IMG/VR virus record: IMGVR_UViG_3300020166_000144
Coordinates: 1-20,441 of that record
DNA length: 20,441 nucleotides
Reading direction: 5' to 3' (one strand)
Source: a virus
Of the stretch, positions 4,084 to 20,441 are shown piece by piece. Under the pieces are notes generated by a model, which did no database searches, had not been told where the DNA came from, and saw only the letters and a program-made list of their open reading frames with translations. Numbering within the stretch: position 1 is the first letter of the stretch; the number at the start of each line of letters is the position of its first letter. A program made the translations under genes and the position numbers.

Positions 4084-4896
4084 ATGATTTTTTATAAATA
4101 CATACTTGATAAAATATTAAATAAGAATACTCTAATTTTCATTGGAGTTTCTTTGTTTGTTTTACTTTTTTTAAGACAGTGTAATCAAATTGAAAATCTA
4201 AAGATAGAGATAGACAATGCTCAAAAAATATCTAATAGAAACTTAAATAACTATAAAGCAAGTTTAGACACTATTAAATTTGAGAAAAATAAAAACGAGG
4301 AAACTATTGCTAAAATAAGATCTTATGAATTAGAAGTTTCAGATTTAAATAAATCTAAAGCAAATCTTATTAAAAAATATAATAACGTTTTAAGTATAAA
4401 TAAAGATGTTGAAGAAATCAATTCAGTAATTAGTGCAGATTTAGAGGTTAAAGATTCTATAATTAATGCAACATCTATTATTACAAAAGAAGCAGACACA
4501 ACTACACTTTCAATATTTGATAATAAAGAGTGGGATAAATATAATTGGAGAAGATTTAATGGATCATTAAGATTAAGGGTTAATGACTCTTCTTTTAATC
4601 TACTTTCATCAGAGTTTAACTTTAGTCAAGGCATTAGTTTGACAGCAGGTATTATAAAAACAACTGAAGGAAATAGTTTAAAAATAACTTCGCCGTATCC
4701 TAATTTAACATTTACTAGGATTGAAAATTTAAATTTAGTAAATGATGAGTTAAACAGACCTATGATAGGAAAATCAGGATGGTCTATAGGATTTGGAGTT
4801 GGATACGGATTAAATTTAAATCCGAATCAAGTAATTAGTGTAGGACCTACTATTGGAGTCGGACTTTATTGGTCTCCAAAATGGTTAAGATTTTAA
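4084..4896 (+). CDS. Membrane-anchored coiled-coil protein with beta-type C-terminus (spanin-like candidate)
   Basis: Function not recognised with certainty. Residues 17-30 form a single hydrophobic segment (TLIFIGVSLFVLLFL) after a Lys-containing N-terminus, suggesting an N-in inner-membrane anchor. Residues 34-115 are charged, heptad-like and probably a long coiled coil in the periplasm. Residues 230-270 alternate Gly/hydrophobic residues as in two amphipathic beta strands and end WSPKWLRF, with a terminal aromatic Phe like the beta-signal of outer-membrane proteins. An inner-membrane anchor, long rod and outer-membrane-seeking end would suit a spanin-like lysis protein; a virion role is also possible because the neighbours are structural. 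No lipobox is present. The start lies 3 nt after the preceding stop, so it is probably translated in the same operon. Confidence 0.45.
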   Translation: MIFYKYILDKILNKNTLIFIGVSLFVLLFLRQCNQIENLKIEIDNAQKISNRNLNNYKASLDTIKFEKNKNEETIAKIRSYELEVSDLNKSKANLIKKYNNVLSINKDVEEINSVISADLEVKDSIINATSIITKEADTTTLSIFDNKEWDKYNWRRFNGSLRLRVNDSSFNLLSSEFNFSQGISLTAGIIKTTEGNSLKITSPYPNLTFTRIENLNLVNDELNRPMIGKSGWSIGFGVGYGLNLNPNQVISVGPTIGVGLYWSPKWLRF

Positions 4897-4901
4897 AATA
4901 T

Positions 4902-5115
4902 AAAAAATAACAATGGCGCAATCATCTAAATTTGCAAGACTTGACGAAGACGTACTATTAGAATTTATCTATCACGATCAAAGCGCGACTGATAACGCTA
5001 AAATAGAAAAAATAACAATGGCGCAATCATCTAAATTTGCAAGACTTGACGAAGACGTACTATTAGAATTTATCTATCACGATCAAAGCGCGACTGATAA
5101 CGCTAAAATAGAAAA
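4902..5115 (+). repeat. Perfect 105-bp tandem duplication spanning a start codon
   Basis: Bases 4902-5010 and 5007-5115 are identical, a period of exactly 105 nt (35 codons, in frame). Each copy includes the upstream tract aaaaaataaca, the ATG and the first 32 codons. The junction shares four A residues, compatible with microhomology-mediated duplication. No synonymous difference separates the copies. Confidence 0.95.
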
Positions 5116-7072
5116 CGACGAAAACGGAAGTCAACTTAAATACTTAAACACATCAAACACGAATAGTGCTGATAGAATGCTTATTCACGAGTTAGGAAGT
5201 GATGTTGTTAATTTTACAGTAAATATTGCAAATGGATATGTATATGTAAACAATTTTGCTTCTAGAGAGTTAATCTTAAAGAATGGAATGACATATAAAT
5301 TTGATCTAAATGATGCATCAATTGATAATCAATCTGGATTTTATATAAATGGAATAGCATATACACCTAATAATGGAATAGTAACGTATACGCCTAATAC
5401 AAATGGAACATATACATATTATTATAGAAATGCAGCGGGAACTTCTTTTATAGGGGGTAATTTAGTTGTTGGCAATAGAGCTAATTCTCTATATGCAAGA
5501 CCAGAACAGGAAACAGGTAATACAATTAAAACAGCACCTGGGGAAGTTGGAAGATACTACGCGGTACCAACTGATAATTCAAATACACTAGCTCTTTTAG
5601 GAAATGATATAGATTATTTAGATTCTCAAGAATGGGAAGGAACAAATTCAACTGGTTTAGGAGTTGTTCAATCTTCACAAGTACAGGCAGTATGGTATGA
5701 TACTATAAGACTTCATTTAAGAACAGGATATAGTTTTAGTGGTAGAGGATATGAAGGGTTTTTATTCCAAGTAAAAGTAAAAAGAAATTCAGGAGAATAT
5801 GGTTATTTTACTTCTGTTGTTTATTTAAACTCTTCAAGCTTTGAGGTTCAAAATCCTAATCCATTTACTCTAGTTGATAGTTCTTTTTCAAAATATATTG
5901 AAATTAAAGTACCTGCACTAATCCACATGTCAGATGCTAATAAGAATTTAGATTTTTCTGAAACTTTTTTTGGAACAGGATCTGATGCAATACTTTCAAC
6001 TACAAACTATGAAATATCTTTAGGATTAATATCTGAAGTTAAAACAGTTACCGGATATGATTATATTGAAATTACTGATACAAAGGAAATAACATTAGCA
6101 CAGGAAGACGAATTTGTAGATATAGCCGTTAATTTAAATGAAGATCCTAATGGAGACTATTTTCAAATATATGGAACTAAAGATGGTTCTCAATCAGGGT
6201 TTGAAAACTATGTTAATGGTAGAATAGAAACATCGTCAGATGATATTACAGTTTTCTATGATGTTGAAGTTAGCGAACAAATTGGTTTAAACTATATAAG
6301 TACATATCAATCAACGTTCTCACAAGTTTCAAATTTTGATCAAAACTTAATATACAGGCCTGTAATTTTAAATTCTTCTGTAAGTAGTAACTTTTTATTA
6401 CAAGTATCTATGAGAATTTATAACGAAACAGATAATACACAAATATTAAAAAGAGCTTCTTTAATATACAACAAGCCTAAGAAATATGGTAGAAGAATGT
6501 CTAAAATAAATTTAAGTGGAAATTATTCTCCAACTGTAATTTACAATAAATTAGACAACACATCAGTTAATAGAGAAATTAATCAATTTGTTAACTCAGC
6601 AAGACCTGTTATAGGAGAAACTAAATACGTGCCAGTTGCGATCAATGTATATGGCGTCGTTGCAGGATCTACTAATGTAACATTACAAGGAACTGAAATA
6701 GAGTCAACAAATGAAATTGATTATTCTCAAAATGGAGAAGGAGAAATTACTTTATCTAAAGTATCTGATAACTTTATTAAATTTAGTATTGCTAAACCAG
6801 CTGGAGATTCTTTAGAATCTATAAGTTTAGTTAATGCCGATGATATTGTTTTAATTATTAAATCAGGAGCAGTAGAACAACAAGTTAGCCACAACCCAAC
6901 TTTCCCAGATATTGATCTAGGAAATGGAGAAGTTTTATTTAAAGTAAATAAGGCAGTCGCAACGAGATTTGATAAAGAAGATACTAATATAGATCAAGAT
7001 AAGTTTTATATTAATTTAAAGAATGGAGAAACAGAATCTCTATTGTATCATGGTAAAGTAAATATTATATAA
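4913..7072 (+). CDS. Large structural-type protein of unknown function, duplicated N-terminus
   Basis: Not recognised as a named family. Without the duplication the protein would begin at the second ATG (5018) and have 684 residues. The segment starting MAQSSKFARLDEDVLLEFIY is present twice at residues 1-35 and 36-70. After that come a KNGMTYKFDLND segment resembling small cupredoxin-like or Ig-like beta domains, then a long series of beta-rich stretches with few Cys. There are no signal peptide, transmembrane segments or enzyme motifs. Its place between fibre genes and a tail-tube-like gene, with a 1-nt stop/start overlap (TAATG) to the latter, points to a virion or baseplate component. Either ATG could be used, since both have the same upstream A-rich tract. 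Confident as a gene, uncertain in role. Confidence 0.6.
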   Translation: MAQSSKFARLDEDVLLEFIYHDQSATDNAKIEKITMAQSSKFARLDEDVLLEFIYHDQSATDNAKIENDENGSQLKYLNTSNTNSADRMLIHELGSDVVNFTVNIANGYVYVNNFASRELILKNGMTYKFDLNDASIDNQSGFYINGIAYTPNNGIVTYTPNTNGTYTYYYRNAAGTSFIGGNLVVGNRANSLYARPEQETGNTIKTAPGEVGRYYAVPTDNSNTLALLGNDIDYLDSQEWEGTNSTGLGVVQSSQVQAVWYDTIRLHLRTGYSFSGRGYEGFLFQVKVKRNSGEYGYFTSVVYLNSSSFEVQNPNPFTLVDSSFSKYIEIKVPALIHMSDANKNLDFSETFFGTGSDAILSTTNYEISLGLISEVKTVTGYDYIEITDTKEITLAQEDEFVDIAVNLNEDPNGDYFQIYGTKDGSQSGFENYVNGRIETSSDDITVFYDVEVSEQIGLNYISTYQSTFSQVSNFDQNLIYRPVILNSSVSSNFLLQVSMRIYNETDNTQILKRASLIYNKPKKYGRRMSKINLSGNYSPTVIYNKLDNTSVNREINQFVNSARPVIGETKYVPVAINVYGVVAGSTNVTLQGTEIESTNEIDYSQNGEGEITLSKVSDNFIKFSIAKPAGDSLESISLVNADDIVLIIKSGAVEQQVSHNPTFPDIDLGNGEVLFKVNKAVATRFDKEDTNIDQDKFYINLKNGETESLLYHGKVNII

Positions 7073-7635: not shown

Positions 7636-8004
7636 ATGAAAACATTTTTAGATTACATGACGAATGCTAATGCAACTGAAGCAGAACTTCAAATATTGCA
7701 AGAATCTTTACAGTCAGAGTGGACTGAATCTTTAGAGGAAAAAGTAGATTCTGCTCTTGAAGAATTTGTATCAGAGTACAAACAAGAGGATGGAACATAC
7801 GATATTGAAAGACTCAATAACGAAATGACTAATGAAGGTATTTTAGGTTCTATTTTTGGAGGTCTTACTGGATTTGCTCTAGGAAAAACAATTGGTAAAG
7901 CAGTTGCTAAAGTCTTAGGCATTGAAAAAGGAATAATGTATGAAATGCTAACCTCTCGATTAGTTGGTGCCGCTCTTGGTGCTGCAATCGGTAAAAAACT
8001 ATAA
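7636..8004 (+). CDS. Small glycine-zipper protein with internal-protein-like N-terminus
   Basis: Function unknown. The N-terminus MKTFLDYM resembles the start of T4 internal proteins (MKTYQEFIAE). Residues 15-67 are acidic and helical, and include a gp21-type site L21-Q22-E23. Residues 68-95 and 109-122 are two Gly-spaced hydrophobic helices (GSIFGGLTGFALGKTIGK and LVGAALGAAIGKKL), a glycine-zipper pattern typical of membrane-inserting proteins. A packaged protein that helps DNA cross the host membrane is one reading; a holin-like lysis protein is another, but the acidic N-domain is long for that. It sits 12 nt after the tail-tube-like gene and 2 nt before the resolvase gene. No Shine-Dalgarno motif precedes the ATG. 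Confidence 0.5.
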   Translation: MKTFLDYMTNANATEAELQILQESLQSEWTESLEEKVDSALEEFVSEYKQEDGTYDIERLNNEMTNEGILGSIFGGLTGFALGKTIGKAVAKVLGIEKGIMYEMLTSRLVGAALGAAIGKKL

Positions 8005-11755: not shown

Positions 11756-13264
11756 TTGGTACTAACATTAACAGACGATAATCAATTTCTAAGAATTGAT
11801 GATGCTACTGAACTTGAGTTAGAACAGATTACAATCTCCCTTACAAAAAGAATTGAAAGTTGGAGATTTAATCCGTTGGTAAAGCGAGGAGTATGGGATG
11901 GTTATGTCTCTTATATTAAAGATGACAAATGGATTCCTGCTGGATTATGGAGACATGTTATCCAGATTTGTAAAGATTATAAGATAGAGATTCAAATGAA
12001 CGGAATAAAACGTTTAATTGATCCAGATATTAACGCAGAAGCATTTGAAGAATGGGCTCTTAATTTCTTTAAAGGAGCTGAGATAACTCCAAGAGATTAT
12101 CAAATAGAAACAGCATATAACATACTTAAATTTAGAAAGTGTTTAGCAGAACTAGCAACATCCGCCGGTAAAACTTTAATTAGTTTTATGACTGTCGCGT
12201 ATATGCTAGAAAAGAAAAAAGCTCAAAAAATATTATTTATAGTTCCTAACGTCTCTTTAGTTGTACAGGCACATGAAGATTTTCATGAATATAATTACAT
12301 GAATAAGGTTAATTTAAAAATTCAACAAATATATTCAGGTAAAAAAATTAAAAGCAATAAAAACATAATTATTGGTACATATCAATCTTTAGTAAAAAAA
12401 GATAAAGAATACTTTAGTCAATTCGACGCAGTTTTAGTAGATGAAACTCATAAAGCAAAAAGTGCATCTATAAAAACAATATTACAAAAATGTACTAATG
12501 CAAAATATAAATTTGGTCTTTCAGGAACAATTCCTAAAGACGGATCTCTTGATAAATTAACACTTATGAGCCAAACAGGCCCAGTTATTAGTGAAGTTAA
12601 AGCGGCTTTTCTACAAAACGAAGGTCATATTGCGAAGTGTTTGGTTAAAGTAATTCAAATGAACTATGCAACAGAAAATCAAAGACAAGCATTTCAAGAG
12701 CTTGCACAAAATAAATACGATAGAAAAGATGTTTTTCAACTTGAACAGAATTTCATTATTAATAGTAAGGCACGTCTTGATTTTATCTCAAGCGTTATTT
12801 CCAGAGTACCCAGGAATAGCCTTGTCCTTTTTCACAGGATTGAACACGGTAAAAAATTATATGAAAAACTTAGACAAGAAAGCGATAAAAGAGTTTTTTA
12901 TGTTGATGGTGGAACCAACACAGATATCAGAGAAGAATATAAGAAAAAAATGGAAGCTGGAGAAGAGGTTGTTATTGTCGCCTCTTATGGTACTTTCTCA
13001 ACAGGGATCTCGATTAAAAAGATTCACAACATATTCTTTACGGAGTCGTTTAAAAGTGAAGTGATTATCAGACAATCAATAGGACGTGGTTTAAGACAAC
13101 ATGAATCAAAAGACAAGGTTTTAATAATCGACTTTGTTGATGATATTAGAACGCCTGAGTGGGACAATTACTTATATAAACACGGTAAAGCACGCCAGGC
13201 AATATACAAACAAGAAAAGTTTGATTATAATATTAAAATAGTCAATTTTGAAGGAGATATATAA
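11756..13264 (+). CDS. uvsW: UvsW-like DNA/RNA helicase
   Basis: SF2 helicase that branch-migrates recombination intermediates and unwinds R-loops. Motifs in order: N-terminal DNA-binding region with WRFNPLVKRGVWDGYV (36-51; T4 YRFNPRFRYGNWDG), Q-motif-like TPRDYQ, Walker A ATSAGKT (134-140), DETH box (229-232), SGT (256-258), ASYGTFSTGISIK (409-421), and motif VI RQSIGRGLRQHE (439-450). Length is 502 against 503 in T4. The first in-frame start is TTG at 11756, directly after an in-frame stop. An ATG at 11749 is out of frame by one base: removing one A from the AAAA run (11752-11755) would give M-K-L-V-L-T. Either TTG is used, or an indel or sequencing error hides the ATG. Confidence 0.92.
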   Translation: MVLTLTDDNQFLRIDDATELELEQITISLTKRIESWRFNPLVKRGVWDGYVSYIKDDKWIPAGLWRHVIQICKDYKIEIQMNGIKRLIDPDINAEAFEEWALNFFKGAEITPRDYQIETAYNILKFRKCLAELATSAGKTLISFMTVAYMLEKKKAQKILFIVPNVSLVVQAHEDFHEYNYMNKVNLKIQQIYSGKKIKSNKNIIIGTYQSLVKKDKEYFSQFDAVLVDETHKAKSASIKTILQKCTNAKYKFGLSGTIPKDGSLDKLTLMSQTGPVISEVKAAFLQNEGHIAKCLVKVIQMNYATENQRQAFQELAQNKYDRKDVFQLEQNFIINSKARLDFISSVISRVPRNSLVLFHRIEHGKKLYEKLRQESDKRVFYVDGGTNTDIREEYKKKMEAGEEVVIVASYGTFSTGISIKKIHNIFFTESFKSEVIIRQSIGRGLRQHESKDKVLIIDFVDDIRTPEWDNYLYKHGKARQAIYKQEKFDYNIKIVNFEGDI

Positions 13265-15344: not shown

Positions 15345-15647
15345 ATGAAGAAAACAAAATTATACGAAGAGTTTATTAACGAAGAAATCTATTTAACCCA
15401 TAGTGAGATCGTAGGTTATCAATTTGATAAGTTTTTAGAATCATATCTTAAACTTAATAAAGATAATAAAACGGTTTATGATAAAAAAGAAGATTTTACG
15501 TATGGTTTTAGAAAAGGATCTAAAACTGCACATTGGAAATATGACCATGATAATTTTGAACTACACCACAGTGAAAAAGAATTTCATGTTTTAGGTCTTA
15601 TAAATTTTTATAAACAAGCATCTAAAGGACATCCTTGGTCTAAATAA
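15345..15647 (+). CDS. Small protein with capsid-targeting-like N-terminus
   Basis: A 100-residue protein of unknown function. The start MKKTKLYEEFINEE closely follows the T4 internal-protein pattern (MKTYQEFIAE, cut after I-A-E): here Y-E-E-F-I-N-E with I11-N12-E13 as the predicted cut. The mature part is rich in His, Lys, Tyr and Phe (TAHWKYDHDNFELHHSEKEF), mixed charge, soluble, with no Cys. It lies 14 nt downstream of the strong terminator, so it is the first gene of a new transcription unit, followed after 10 nt by the ligase-like gene. It is a good candidate for a small injected protein; its target cannot be read. Confidence 0.6.
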   Translation: MKKTKLYEEFINEEIYLTHSEIVGYQFDKFLESYLKLNKDNKTVYDKKEDFTYGFRKGSKTAHWKYDHDNFELHHSEKEFHVLGLINFYKQASKGHPWSK

Positions 15648-15657
15648 AATAAGCACA

Positions 15658-16941
15658 ATGAAGATATTATCATTTAAAGATTTTTTAATAGAAAGAGAAA
15701 ATAAAGAAGTATTAAACTCTAAATTAATTTTAGAAGGTGGAGCAGCAGGACACATGTCACATCCATTTGATGAAAAAGATTTGACATTTGCAGATTTTAA
15801 AAAGATAGTAACTGCAGGTCTTCAAGGTGAATTAAACTTTGAGGAAGAAGCCACTGAAAAAACTGACGGTCAAAATGTATTTGCAACAGTTCAAGATGGA
15901 GAAGTAAAATTTGCCAGAAATAAAACTGAATTAGCAAATCCAATGGACCTTGCTACTTTTAAGAATAAGTTTGAAGGACATGCTAGTAAATTAGTACAAG
16001 ATACTTTTCAATTTGCTGCAGAAGATTTAGCAAACTCATTAAATAAATTATCCCCTAAAGATTTAGAAGTTTTTGATAACGGTAAAAACTGGATGAACAT
16101 GGAATTAATTTATTCTAAGAATCCAAACGTTATCTATTATGATCGTGATGTTATTCAATTTCATGGTATAAAGAAAACTGATGGTGAAGGTAATACTACT
16201 GGAGAGGATAACAAACCAGCAAGATCAATCGCGAAAGCAATGCAAGATCTTAAAGTTAATGTTGGTAAAACATTTACAGTCATTCCACCTCAAATTATTA
16301 AATTAGGTAAAGATTTAGATTTTGAAAAGAACAAGTCTAAATTTATAAAACAAATAGAAGCATTAAGAGACCGTTATAAATTATCAGATGCTGATGAAGT
16401 TTCTAGATATCACGAAATGTGGTGGAGAGAAACAATAGATACAAATTTCCCTGATTTACAACAAGACTATAAAGAAGGTTTATTATTAAGATGGGCTTAT
16501 GGAGATAAGAAGTCTTTAAATATGAGAAGCCTTGCAAAAGAAATAGGAAAAGATGAAGCAGCTTCTGTTAAGAAATTTGACAAAGAAGATGTTAAAAAGA
16601 AATATAAAGAAAACATTAGACCGTTCGAAGATTTGTTCTTAGAACTAGGATCTATAATTCTTAAGAATGCTTCTAATTTTGTAGCAGCAAATCCAGACAA
16701 GGAAATGCAAAGACTACATGATCAAATTAGAAAAGAATCAGATAAAATTAAAAAAGGTGGAGGAGAAGCTCAAATTGCAAAAGTTGAAGCTGAACTTGCA
16801 AGATTAGATAGAATTGGAGGAATAGAATCTATTATACCAACTGAAGGAATAGTGTTTGTATATAAAGGAAAAACAATGAAATTAACAGGTACGTTTGCAG
16901 CCATTAATCAATTAATGGGTATCATAAAATACGGTAGATAA
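15658..16941 (+). CDS. Ligase-fold nucleotidyltransferase with capsid-targeting-like N-terminus
   Basis: Likely member of the covalent nucleotidyltransferase superfamily (RNA/DNA ligases, capping enzymes). Visible motifs: I, EKTDGQN with the nucleophile Lys68 (67-73); III-like, WMNMELIY (145-152); IV, TEGIVFV (395-401); V, MKLTG (407-411). The N-terminus MKILSFKDFLIERE fits the F-x-x-F-L targeting pattern. A second gp21-type site, I24-L25-E26 followed by Gly, would leave a mature protein starting GGAAGHMSHPFD. Between motifs III and IV is a long Lys/Glu-rich helical insert (285-385) not typical of small RNA ligases. Whether it ligates RNA, DNA or modifies another substrate is unknown. The next gene starts one base after its stop, indicating coupled expression. 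Confidence 0.7.
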   Translation: MKILSFKDFLIERENKEVLNSKLILEGGAAGHMSHPFDEKDLTFADFKKIVTAGLQGELNFEEEATEKTDGQNVFATVQDGEVKFARNKTELANPMDLATFKNKFEGHASKLVQDTFQFAAEDLANSLNKLSPKDLEVFDNGKNWMNMELIYSKNPNVIYYDRDVIQFHGIKKTDGEGNTTGEDNKPARSIAKAMQDLKVNVGKTFTVIPPQIIKLGKDLDFEKNKSKFIKQIEALRDRYKLSDADEVSRYHEMWWRETIDTNFPDLQQDYKEGLLLRWAYGDKKSLNMRSLAKEIGKDEAASVKKFDKEDVKKKYKENIRPFEDLFLELGSIILKNASNFVAANPDKEMQRLHDQIRKESDKIKKGGGEAQIAKVEAELARLDRIGGIESIIPTEGIVFVYKGKTMKLTGTFAAINQLMGIIKYGR

Positions 16942-16942
16942 C

Positions 16943-18826
16943 ATGGCACTTACAAAATTAAGAACACATTTCAACGAAACTAATATTAATGAGTTTCAAA
17001 GATTATTAAAAAACAGAGTAATGGTTGTTGAAAAGATTTCAGCACCTGCGTTTTACGTTAGAAGATTTGAAAATAAATTTGAATTTTATAAATCTTCAAA
17101 ATCTAAGCCTTTAACAATTATCGATAGAACTATTATGTCTCTTTACGAAATAGCTATTAAACATATACAAAGTTTAAGCCCTAATAGTAAAGAATTATTA
17201 CCAGGTAATTACAGGTTTGGTTTTGAATATTTACCAGAAGAAAAAGTTTCTGAATATGAATATACAAAAACACCTAAAAACAATTTAATATTAACACATA
17301 TACATCAACTTAGCGATAGCGGAAAAGTAAAAAAGACAATCATAGATCCAGTTGTTATAGAAAAATGGTCTAAAATATTAGAAGTACAGTCTCAAGGTGT
17401 TTTATTTGATGGAACACTAAACTCTCTTCAAACATCTAAATTAATTAAATTATTAGAAATGAATGATAAATCTTTTTCTGATAACTTTGATTACGACATA
17501 GAAACCGATAAACAAGTTTCTTTTACTAAAGAAATTTATAAAATATTTAACGCTAATTCTTCTTCAACAATTTTACAAGAAGATTTAGAATCAGAAATAG
17601 ATGGTTTAGTTTTAAATTTTGTAGAAGGTAAAAAAATACAATCTTTTAAATTAGAAGACTTTAGTAGAAATCCAATAAATGAAGCTAGAGAAGGTTCACA
17701 CACATATCAAATTGCAATCGCAGATATATTAGAGTTTTTTGTAAATTATGATTTTAACGAAACGCAACTATTAGAAAAGAAAGCAGATGAAAGATATATC
17801 GAATTAATGTCAGTTGCTTTTAATAAATACGTAGAAAAAAATGCTGCAAGATATATTGGAGTTAATTTCCAAAATGCAGAATTTTCTTCTTCAGATTTAT
17901 TTAAGTTAAATACAGCCTTTATAAAAAACGAAAAAACATTAAAGAATGTTTCTAACGAAGTTTTATCTAGTTTATTTAAAATAACTTTAGGAACTTTTAG
18001 AAAACAAAAAACAAAATCAACAGATATATTAAATGATGATATGATTTCTCAATTAAATAATGTTGTTGATAAAATTAACGAAGTTGTCTTTCTAGAAAAT
18101 TCAGATGAAAATTCTATATATGATTACAAAAATTTCATGCTTCATAATAATATAAAAAGTGAGATAACTTTAAATGAAGCCTTAACTGTAAAATATGGAG
18201 AACAAGGAAAAGAGCCAGTAAACATGTTTGTTGGTAGATTTCAACCATTTACATTAGGCCATGCTAAAGTTTTAGAAGCAATTCACAAAGAGAATGGATA
18301 TCCAGTTATCGTATTTTTAATTAAAGCAAAGAATAAAAAGAAAGGTGACGAATTTAGAAAACCATATTCTGAAGATTTACAAATTAAAATGTTTAAACAG
18401 GTTCAAAAGCAATATAAATTCTTAAAAGAAATTATAGTTTTAGATAGAGGAGCAATTGATTATATGTTTAATGAACTTAGACCAAAATATGAACCAGTTC
18501 TTTGGGGAACAGGATCTGATAGAATGAAATCTTATGGATATCAAGTAAATAATGATTCTTATAGAGATCAATTAAATGTAAGATCTGATTTTGGATTATT
18601 TGAAATACCAAGAAGCGATGATAATATTTCAGCAACTCAAGTAAGAAACGCGATGTTAGATGGAGATGAAAAATTATTTAAAAAGACTACACCAAAGTCA
18701 ATCCATAAAATGTATGATATTTTAAAGTCTGAACTTGAAAAATCAATGGAACTTGTAGTTGCTTCTAAGATTGTGTCAGAATCAATTATGACGTTTGAGC
18801 AATATATGAATAAATTAAAATCATAA
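16943..18826 (+). CDS. Fusion of ligase-like domain and NMN adenylyltransferase-like domain
   Basis: Two domains. The N-terminal part (about 1-245) aligns by eye with the preceding ligase-like protein: EKISAPAFYV against EKTDGQNVFA, so the motif I Lys is kept but Asp-Gly is replaced by Ser-Ala; a motif III-like FGFEYL; motif IV EIDGLVLNF; and motif V FKLEDF. After a helical middle region, the C-terminal domain (about 425-600) is a HIGH-type nucleotidyltransferase: GRFQPFTLGH (431-440) and ISATQVR (562-568), the ATP-binding motifs of NadM/NadR-type NMN adenylyltransferases, which make NAD from NMN and ATP. Another HIGH-family activity is possible. The extreme C-terminus TFEQYMNKLKS resembles a capsid-targeting element. 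One-base gap to the upstream gene implies coupling. Confidence 0.75.
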   Translation: MALTKLRTHFNETNINEFQRLLKNRVMVVEKISAPAFYVRRFENKFEFYKSSKSKPLTIIDRTIMSLYEIAIKHIQSLSPNSKELLPGNYRFGFEYLPEEKVSEYEYTKTPKNNLILTHIHQLSDSGKVKKTIIDPVVIEKWSKILEVQSQGVLFDGTLNSLQTSKLIKLLEMNDKSFSDNFDYDIETDKQVSFTKEIYKIFNANSSSTILQEDLESEIDGLVLNFVEGKKIQSFKLEDFSRNPINEAREGSHTYQIAIADILEFFVNYDFNETQLLEKKADERYIELMSVAFNKYVEKNAARYIGVNFQNAEFSSSDLFKLNTAFIKNEKTLKNVSNEVLSSLFKITLGTFRKQKTKSTDILNDDMISQLNNVVDKINEVVFLENSDENSIYDYKNFMLHNNIKSEITLNEALTVKYGEQGKEPVNMFVGRFQPFTLGHAKVLEAIHKENGYPVIVFLIKAKNKKKGDEFRKPYSEDLQIKMFKQVQKQYKFLKEIIVLDRGAIDYMFNELRPKYEPVLWGTGSDRMKSYGYQVNNDSYRDQLNVRSDFGLFEIPRSDDNISATQVRNAMLDGDEKLFKKTTPKSIHKMYDILKSELEKSMELVVASKIVSESIMTFEQYMNKLKS

Positions 18827-18873: not shown

Positions 18874-20441
18874 ATGGACAAATCACACTCTAATCAAGAT
18901 GATAGAATAGATGAAGGAAAAATAACTATAAAAAGACGTTATACTGAAAATTATCCTGCTAAAACCGTTGGCGCATCTGCTAGAATCAGGAATAAAATGT
19001 TAGAAGCAATTTCAGATGGTGCTATCACTCAAGATGAATTCAATTCTATTATTGCAGAATTATCTGCAGATTCAAAAAGATGGATGTCTCGTAATTCTAA
19101 ACTTTTTAATATTACAGAGTCTGGTATAACGTTAACAGCGTTAGGTAAGAAAATATTATCTCAAATTACAATAAACGAAAAAACAAAAAAGAATCCAGAA
19201 ATATGGGTTCCTGGTAAATTTGATAAAGATCTTTCTAAATTAACAGCCGATGAAATAACAATAGACAATTTAAAAAAATTATCAAAAAAACATAGAGTGT
19301 TTTTAGATGATGCAATTAAGTACGCTGAATATAGCTATGATATTGATTTAGATGAAAATCAAACAATAAAAAATAATAATATGAAAACACAATTAGTATT
19401 TGAATCTTTCGGAGATTTTGTAAACTCATTAAATAAAAATAATGAAGAATTAAACGAAGGAACTAGAGGTCAATTTGGAATGATTGATAAAAAAGGAAAT
19501 ATACAATCAGTATATATGCACTATGATTCATACCCTGAAAACATTTTACCTATAATAAAAAAGGGTTATAGAAACGCTAAAAAAGTACAGGCAGTTATTG
19601 ATAGAGGAGATACTTCTGGATTAGATAAAACAGTCGATACCATGAATTTTTATGAAGATGGTAGAAAACCAACATCTGGTAAAAAAGCACAAATGGATCG
19701 TTACATTAAGAAGGCCGCTGATGAAGGTGGTGCAGAATATATTTACTTATATGATGAATCTGAAAAAACTTGGTATATGGTTGATATCTATGGAGATATG
19801 CAATTAGTTCCAGCATTTGAATCAGTAGTAAACGAATCATACGATTACGATGAAGTAGCACAATCTGAATTTGGAATGGATTACGATCAATTAGGTCCAG
19901 GTGAAAAAGAATGGGTACGTGATGAAATAGACAACATGTCTGAGACTAACGAAGCAGTTAATAATATCGCGTATGTTAAAGCTGGAAAATTAGGTAATAA
20001 TGACCAATTTCTAGCGAAGAGATCTTTATCATGGACATTATCAGTTGATTTAGGTTTAAAAGCATCTGACGAATTTGTTGGACCATGGCTAGGATTTGAT
20101 CACGTATCACTATACGCTATTGGTAAAAAAGGAGGAACAATTCTTGATGACGCTTTAACAGGTAAATATACTTATGATGAATTAAAAGCAGCCGCTGCAG
20201 ATTTCTTAGGTATTAAAGAATCAGTAGACGTTGAACTTAATGAAGCATTCAAATCTTCTAAGTTAAGAAACTTAATGAACATGGATCAAGCATCAGCTTA
20301 CGGTAAGAATAAGAATTTAGCTTCTGCATTCTACGGAATGTCTAAAGTTAAATTAGATCAAGTTGGTGATGAATCTTTAGTAGATGTAGATCCTAAAACA
20401 GCATACAAGCAATACGCAAACAACAAAGACTTTGTTGTATT
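18874..20441 (+). CDS. Probable internal head protein, multi-block, 3' end outside window
   Basis: The frame is open for 522 codons from ATG 18874 to the window edge, so the gene is truncated. No named family is recognised. Residues 1-165 form a soluble helical block (KMLEAISDGAITQDEFNSII and KRWMSRNSKLFN). Met170 (19381), after a run of Asn codons, starts MKTQLVFESFGDFVNSLN, which again fits the capsid-targeting pattern and could be a second start or a domain junction. gp21-type sites follow at L193-N194-E195 (then Gly), I447-K448-E449 and L455-N456-E457 (then Ala). Between these lies a beta-type domain with MHYDSYPENILPIIKKGY. Like the 661-residue gene, it may be processed during head maturation. 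The ATG has the usual A-rich upstream tract. Confidence 0.6.
   Translation, partial: MDKSHSNQDDRIDEGKITIKRRYTENYPAKTVGASARIRNKMLEAISDGAITQDEFNSIIAELSADSKRWMSRNSKLFNITESGITLTALGKKILSQITINEKTKKNPEIWVPGKFDKDLSKLTADEITIDNLKKLSKKHRVFLDDAIKYAEYSYDIDLDENQTIKNNNMKTQLVFESFGDFVNSLNKNNEELNEGTRGQFGMIDKKGNIQSVYMHYDSYPENILPIIKKGYRNAKKVQAVIDRGDTSGLDKTVDTMNFYEDGRKPTSGKKAQMDRYIKKAADEGGAEYIYLYDESEKTWYMVDIYGDMQLVPAFESVVNESYDYDEVAQSEFGMDYDQLGPGEKEWVRDEIDNMSETNEAVNNIAYVKAGKLGNNDQFLAKRSLSWTLSVDLGLKASDEFVGPWLGFDHVSLYAIGKKGGTILDDALTGKYTYDELKAAAADFLGIKESVDVELNEAFKSSKLRNLMNMDQASAYGKNKNLASAFYGMSKVKLDQVGDESLVDVDPKTAYKQYANNKDFVV

Follow-up and report, generated by a model that had tools for sequence, protein, structure and literature searches.

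The window, as we call the whole stretch analysed here, is a 20,441-base record from a marine virus and carries helicase, primase and single-strand DNA-binding protein genes of T4 type. The nearest relatives of its UvsW-like helicase come from the 462-kb phage LR756500, other huge phages and the Prevotella Lak phages, affinities that suggest a Bacteroidetes host for the window phage. The gene of interest encodes an RNA-ligase-2-like domain joined to an NMN-adenylyltransferase (NMNAT)-like domain and followed by a peptide resembling a capsid-targeting tag (Table 1). Its open reading frame is intact, the ATG lies one base past the stop codon of the upstream gene, and the opposite strand is rich in stops. 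Elsewhere in the window, positions 4894–5103 hold a near-perfect 105-nt tandem duplication (99–100%) at the start of the 4913–7072 ORF, which thereby encodes its first 35 residues twice; translation may really begin at the second copy, or the duplication may be an assembly slip. A 132-residue ORF at 12666–13064, in another frame within the UvsW-like helicase gene, is open in several relatives also and may be a codon-usage effect. Matches to the T4 late promoter TATAAATA number 3, against 5.5 expected, and are uninformative.

Table 1. Positions in the window of the fusion gene, its parts and its neighbours
Feature	Position	Strand	Basis
Fusion gene: RNA-ligase-2-like domain, NMN-adenylyltransferase-like domain and C-terminal capsid-targeting-like tag, 627 aa	16943..18826	+	
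Nucleotidyltransferase-fold part of the ligase-like domain, residues 1-240; top structures T4 Rnl2 2hvr/2hvq/1s68	16943..17662	+	
Motif I EKISA, residues 30-34, degenerate	17030..17044	+	
All-helical region, residues 253-382, at the position of the Rnl2 C-terminal domain	17699..18088	+	AlphaFold model, Foldseek alignment
Low-confidence linker, residues 386-420	18098..18202	+	AlphaFold model
NMNAT-like (NadM-type) HIGH-superfamily domain, residues 423-603	18209..18751	+	
GRFQPFTLGH (TxGH) signature, residues 431-440	18233..18262	+	
ISATQVR signature, residues 562-568	18626..18646	+	
C-terminal capsid-targeting-like tag ESIMTFEQYMNKLKS, residues 613-627	18779..18823	+	
Upstream RNA-ligase-fold protein ('AAGHM' family), 427 aa; EKTDGQN, E149, EGIVF and KLTG intact	15658..16941	+	
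Predicted N-terminal propeptide (upstream ligase) with capsid-targeting-like MKILSFKDFLIE, a disordered linker and, as prohead-protease site, ILE26/GG (cut after E26)	15658..15735	+	
Intact motif I EKTDG of the upstream ligase-fold protein	15856..15870	+	
Small protein of the same cluster, capsid-targeting-like N-terminus MKKTKLYEEFINEE	15345..15647	+	
Downstream gene, runs off the window; homologues start MKKFEEFIGE or MDFNNFLNE, capsid-targeting-like	18874..20441	+	

Pfam and PHROGs see the C-terminal part of the fusion alone (PF01467, E 6.6e-10; phrog_3041 and phrog_395, 'cytidyltransferase'). More than 90 different phage proteins conserve the fusion and its two domains. A search for homologues with the same fusion, as the earlier note had proposed, recovered full-length relatives in IMG/VR that range from 85% to about 35% identity and keep the two-domain layout, and phage LR756500 carries the same ligase–NMNAT fusion at 36% identity. 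The N-terminal domain also occurs alone, as a protein of 440–457 residues, in four huge-phage genomes (LR756501, LR756502, LR756504 and LR745206); no plasmid relatives of it were found. Purifying selection acts on both domains (dN/dS 0.12–0.18 for the ligase domain and 0.08–0.17 for the NMNAT domain). Because homologues of the same layout extend to 35% identity and both domains are under such selection, a chance origin of the fusion is excluded.

The AlphaFold model of the fusion (39 sequences) has a mean pLDDT of 83 and a pTM of 0.58, leaving the relative placement of the domains uncertain; the fold predictions were built on IMG/VR relatives. The best Foldseek match of the model is full-length T4 RNA ligase 2 (Rnl2, gp24.1; 2hvr_B, E 1.3e-7; 2hvq, 9.3e-7; 1s68, 5.3e-5), followed by other RNA ligases and then by HIGH-superfamily nucleotidyltransferases, which bears out the ligase-like N-terminal domain that had been proposed from the letters. 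The likeness to Rnl2 includes the order of motifs (I-III-IIIa-IV-V) and extends to the helical region, which we take to be equivalent to the Rnl2 C-terminal domain on the basis of the model. The window protein itself does not match PF09414; two relatives approach it (L086, E 0.011; L100, E 0.054), both below the gathering cut-off. Thus, as modelled, the N-terminal domain has the Rnl2 fold yet fails the sequence tests for a canonical Rnl2: it has K-x-S-A in place of K-x-D/H-G in motif I, Asp-Gly in place of Glu-Gly in motif IV and K-x-E in place of K-x-K in motif V. The fusion to an NMNAT-like domain and the capsid tag also set it apart from T4 Rnl2. The earlier reading of Ser-Ala for Asp-Gly in motif I is therefore correct, and the further claim that the lysine of motif I and motifs III, IV and V are kept holds only in part for the lysine and for motifs III and V, the second lysine of motif V being Glu, and fails at motif IV, where Asp stands in place of the canonical Glu.

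How far this site has drifted is seen across 99 distinct members. The motif-I lysine is present in 90 and lost in 9; position 33 is occupied by Gln (43), Ser (22), Ala (13), Asp (12) or Asn (9) and position 34 by Ala (65), Gly (32) or Ser (2). The motif III acid is Glu in 46 and Asp in 45 (Gln in 7, Asn in 1), the motif IV acid is Asp in 67 and Glu in 15 (Ala in 12, Ser in 5), and the first lysine of motif V (residue 236 in the window) is kept in 85, its second position being mostly Glu. Some fusion relatives carry the canonical motif I, EKIDG. Deep branches lack the lysine altogether, with ENLDG in LR756500 and EDIQG, EDVQG or ENIQG in the huge-phage proteins. Two distant full-length homologues, Campylobacter phage CPt10_0251 (EKYDG) and Vibrio phage TDDLMA CDS0293 (HKTDG), retain the FxEF, EG and LLK motifs. 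Since these homologues and some closer relatives keep K-x-D-G, the ligase site was probably complete and catalytic in the ancestor; in the clade of the window it appears weakened and is perhaps non-catalytic. In T4 Rnl2 itself motif I reads K-x-H-G, and loss of the aspartate alone is therefore no proof of inactivity.

These data bear directly on the possibility that the ligase-like domain has lost catalysis and serves for structure or binding, leaving the protein in practice only a capsid-delivered NMNAT, a reading to which we give appreciable weight, a little less than to the one preferred below. The free variation of position 33 and of the motif IV acid, the lysine losses, the motif V without its second lysine and the huge phages that keep an E[DN]IQG domain on its own all agree with it, but the lysine is retained in nine tenths of the members, some relatives and the distant homologues are canonical, and selection has acted to preserve the domain. 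The earlier note had offered a non-catalytic module as one option; active-site drift and the deep branches favour this, the K-x-D-G of other members speaks against it, and it is not proven.

In the C-terminal domain, GRFQPFTLGH and ISATxVR are nearly invariant among fused members, and both signatures are complete in the window, as had been noted. With VIA-align, the nearest structures are NadM enzymes (MJ0541, 1f9a, Z 15.2, r.m.s.d. 2.4 over 154 residues; MTH150, Z 15.0). NadD and PPAT structures score Z 13–14, 1–2 Z under NadM, which also gives the lowest r.m.s.d. A profile search of PDB sequences returns NadM at E 3.9e-7 and nothing except NadM above noise. In NCBIfam the domain matches NMNAT families far under their equivalog cut-offs (TIGR01527, 25.9 bits versus 181.2). 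From sequence and model, the label 'NMNAT-like, NadM type' fits the domain, with NMN as the presumed substrate; adenylation of NMN by it is rather more likely than not. Alternatively, the domain may be a different enzyme of the HIGH family: one resembling PPAT, for instance, or one that adenylates the 5′ phosphates of nucleic acids. The low NCBIfam scores and the narrow structural margin leave room for such an enzyme, but every significant PDB sequence-profile match is NadM, as is the structure of lowest r.m.s.d., and we regard it as unlikely. The earlier assignment, which would have fallen had the domain clearly grouped with non-NMN cytidylyltransferases, is upheld.

The fold and the TxGH and ISATxVR signatures are thus shared with NadM-type enzymes, including NadM-Nudix proteins. 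Unlike NadM-Nudix, the fusion has a ligase domain in place of Nudix, and a NadV partner is usually not found: NadV/NAPRTase occurs in just 2 of 14 long relatives (one PncB-like by eye), in records that may be incomplete. NAD salvage by the usual route gains no support from these records, and nothing found bears on NAD capping, a role that the earlier note had considered. A candidate separate NadM gene in a 429-kb relative was rejected, as it looks PPAT-like.

Directly 5′ of the fusion lies a second RNA-ligase-fold protein, and this arrangement is found in nearly all relatives with sufficient flank. The motifs of this upstream ligase are nearly invariant in a set of 32 sequences whose identity falls to about 34%. 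Its model (pLDDT 85) has RNA and DNA ligases as structural matches, with modest Z scores of up to 8.8. No sequence homology was detected between it and the N-terminal domain of the fusion (profile comparison probability 0.2%), and a recent duplication giving rise to the two ligase-like proteins of the window is not supported. We also considered a general RNA-repair operon as the context and rejected it on the sparse counts among the 14 long relatives (KptA in 1, canonical RNA_ligase in 3, kinase in 5; records may be incomplete).

The pairing of ligase-fold and NMNAT-like proteins recurs well beyond the window. An NMNAT-like domain is joined to an AAGHM ligase in 48 further proteins of 616–1907 residues (for example Microcystis phage Mel-JY01 WWT39297 and LR756508), and in one protein (L258) the order of the two domains is reversed. 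These proteins link the same two activities and contain a homologue of the upstream ligase of the window, but carry the NMNAT-like domain on the full-motif ligase rather than on an Rnl2-like domain. CPt10_0251 and TDDLMA CDS0293 (38% identical to each other) match the family profile across both domains (probability 98%, E 3.2e-13) and so share the ligase–NMNAT architecture; unlike the window protein, they have a canonical motif I (KYDG/KTDG), show no capsid tag and are not annotated as ligases. In Stenotrophomonas phage Ps15, a protein with KxDG...EGVII...KIK (motifs by eye; no Pfam match) directly precedes an NMNAT gene. Proteins whose genes are fused in several different ways usually act together. 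Besides the layout of the window, at least three others place a ligase-fold and an NMNAT-like protein next to each other or within one chain, so that the two probably work together, and for the fusion protein and its neighbouring ligase we consider joint action rather more probable than independent roles. A partial literature search returned nothing on an RNA ligase–NMNAT fusion. A 'tRNA ligase' near the P-SSM2 NMNAT gene was rejected as an RNA ligase, since by eye it looks like an aminoacyl-tRNA synthetase.

In the loci that were read, terminase- and portal-like genes follow closely behind the genes of the largest NMNAT–AAGHM proteins. Four giant marine-phage ORFs of 1325–1907 residues with NMNAT-like and ligase domains (L259:835-6558, L187:2140-7245, L244:3256-7233 and L213:3-4748) have several hydrophobic-x-E sites between domains and, where read, terminase- or portal-like genes downstream; from their sequences, these resemble packaged polyproteins that a prohead protease cleaves. 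In a 484-kb phage, a ParB_N-like domain (Pfam E 4e-4, below cut-off) stands ahead of the NMNAT-like and ligase domains (L097:5483-8230).

The fusion protein and the upstream ligase both carry signals that resemble those of T4 head proteins. Entry of T4 internal proteins into the head depends on an N-terminal peptide of 10 residues, whose positions 4 and 7 weigh most in targeting and whose positions 8 and 10 weigh most in processing. The protease gp21 cleaves behind L/I-x-E, and Alt undergoes processing at its two termini, the C-terminal one included (PMC9026906, PMC5694885). In the fusion family, a C-terminal tag of the form [TSLE][FY]xx[FY]x (TF-x-x-F-[IL]-like) is present in 84 of 92 unique homologues against 1.0 expected, the expectation being computed from internal windows and the 92 sequences being related rather than independent events. 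The remaining 8 lack it, and none is obvious in the huge-phage proteins that consist of the N-terminal domain only. In the window the tag is predicted to form a short helix following a low-confidence, disordered linker, and a hydrophobic-x-E site, of looser form, lies near the tag in 75 of the 92. In the upstream ligase family the site is clear: an LxE-type (hydrophobic-x-E) sequence stands exactly before a conserved GG in 141 of 169 homologues. Two long relatives show a genome-wide excess of N-terminal tags (8 versus 1.0 expected, p 1e-5; 13 versus 0.75, p 1.4e-12). Of the 14 long relatives, 12 encode a gp21-like prohead protease, which was seen in 0 of 14 control genomes; the window fragment does not reach the protease gene. 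The parallel with T4 internal head proteins (IPI–III, Alt) covers a short aromatic targeting peptide and, putatively, L/I-x-E processing and ejection; the mature proteins are unrelated (Alt is an ADP-ribosyltransferase) and the tag of the fusion is C-terminal. By analogy, this tag would direct packaging; against this, the T4 peptides known to do so are N-terminal.

Further tag-like peptides occur in and around the family. Residues 395–404 of the linker (about 18125–18154) contain a second one, IYDYKNFML, and the single-domain huge-phage proteins have NFNDYF or DFGDFF near the C-terminus, at the matching place. The downstream gene has a conserved RRYTEN(Y/H)P segment and a second tag-like peptide, MKTQLVFESFGDFVNS, inside, at 19381. 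In one relative (L100:5998-9351) the tag LLTFNDFINESLITE is internal and the fusion runs on into a further 480-residue domain, as might result from the merging of two tagged genes. A 122-residue protein at 7636–8004 starts MKTFLDYM, in the register of the T4 tag, and its homologues start MKTFNKYLVEE.

Cyanophages offer a comparison at the level of the virion. NMNAT-like proteins have been reported in virions of S-CBWM1, S-SZBM1, S-SCSM1 and S-CREM2 (PMC10665884), and S-SCSM1 ORF91 was detected in virions with the products of neighbouring genes (PMC9602691); the proteome authors treated these proteins as possible carry-over (PMC10665884, PMC9602691). We find that the cyanophage NMNAT-like proteins checked here start in the T4 register (MK-x-F-x-x-F-L-x-E), with MKSFSQFLTE, MKKFSAFLTE, MKLFNQFFKE, MKGFSNFLIE and, at the N-terminus of S-SCSM1 ORF91, MKSFLQFLKE. 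Carry-over is therefore less likely. A partial literature search found nothing on capsid targeting of cyanophage NMNAT. These virion 'cytidyltransferases' (T4-GC190; S-SCSM1 ORF91, S-CREM2 ORF154) share with the fusion a homologous NMNAT-like domain and a capsid-targeting-like peptide, but their tag is N-terminal and they are without a ligase domain. Packaging and injection of the fusion protein are, on these sequence signals, likely, the virion reports themselves covering cyanophage NMNAT-like proteins only. The fusion could instead be an ordinary cytoplasmic gene of NAD metabolism (an auxiliary metabolic gene) with no virion role and with terminal peptides that are coincidental, given that NadM-type domains elsewhere in phages are part of NadV–NadM salvage (PMC9503650). 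The scarcity of NadV in the possibly incomplete records noted above, the lack of a Nudix domain, the frequency of the tag, the cluster of tagged genes and the cyanophage virion proteins make such a gene improbable.

The reading we prefer, at somewhat less than an even chance, is that of a ligase and NMNAT module packaged in the head and injected. The C-terminal peptide would draw the fusion protein into the prohead core, and the N-terminal peptide would draw in the upstream ligase, to be trimmed at LxE/GG by a T4-gp21-like prohead protease. Both proteins would then be ejected into the host with the DNA. There, the NadM-like domain may adenylate NMN with ATP to give NAD+, a step suggested by association. 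In the weakest step, suggested in the same way, the Rnl2-like domain would serve mainly as a nucleic-acid- or nucleotide-binding module linking the NMNAT to the full-motif ligase. The module would seal or adenylate nucleic-acid ends early in infection, and NMN released by NAD+-dependent ligation (host LigA or a phage ligase) could be returned by it to NAD+. We propose such recycling for end sealing as the purpose of the module only tentatively. Still more doubtful is a bolder version, in which an injected ligase–NMNAT machine couples NAD+ or NMN directly to the sealing or adenylation of ends, on the incoming genome or on host RNA, in several phage lineages and with different fusion orders.

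An injected module might also act as a damage-control kit, in which the ligase rejoins RNA that host anticodon nucleases have cleaved, while the NMNAT replenishes NAD+, so that the pair would counter abortive-infection defences from the first minute. The packaging signals agree with this, RNA-ligase folds are the best structural matches of both ligase domains, and in some phages the NMNAT–ligase protein also includes a P-loop kinase akin to Zeta toxin/AAA_33 (detected in L244, one of the NMNAT–AAGHM proteins), recalling kinase-plus-ligase RNA repair. However, NADases release nicotinamide and not NMN, so that an NMNAT alone cannot restore NAD+, and at least two relatives have a separate adjacent kinase and RNA_ligase pair elsewhere. 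The anti-NADase and RNA-repair functions are further weakened because NadV was not seen in 12 of the 14 long relatives and KptA was seen in just one (incomplete records). We judge the kit unlikely.

Returning to the packaged module that we prefer, the ligase–NMNAT architecture with a capsid tag is a new combination of known parts; the adjacent full-motif ligase, the repeated ligase–NMNAT pairing and the capsid-targeting signals had all escaped the earlier note. The targeting peptides provide a sequence explanation for the NMNAT-like proteins of cyanophage virions. Through the repeated fusions, enzymes with an RNA-ligase fold are connected with NAD synthesis in several lineages of phages, and we found no mention of this link in the literature searched. 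If the proposal is true, many marine phages would inject a nucleotidyl-transfer module ahead of any gene expression, and the targeting tag would be a means to list the remaining injected proteins of uncultured phages.
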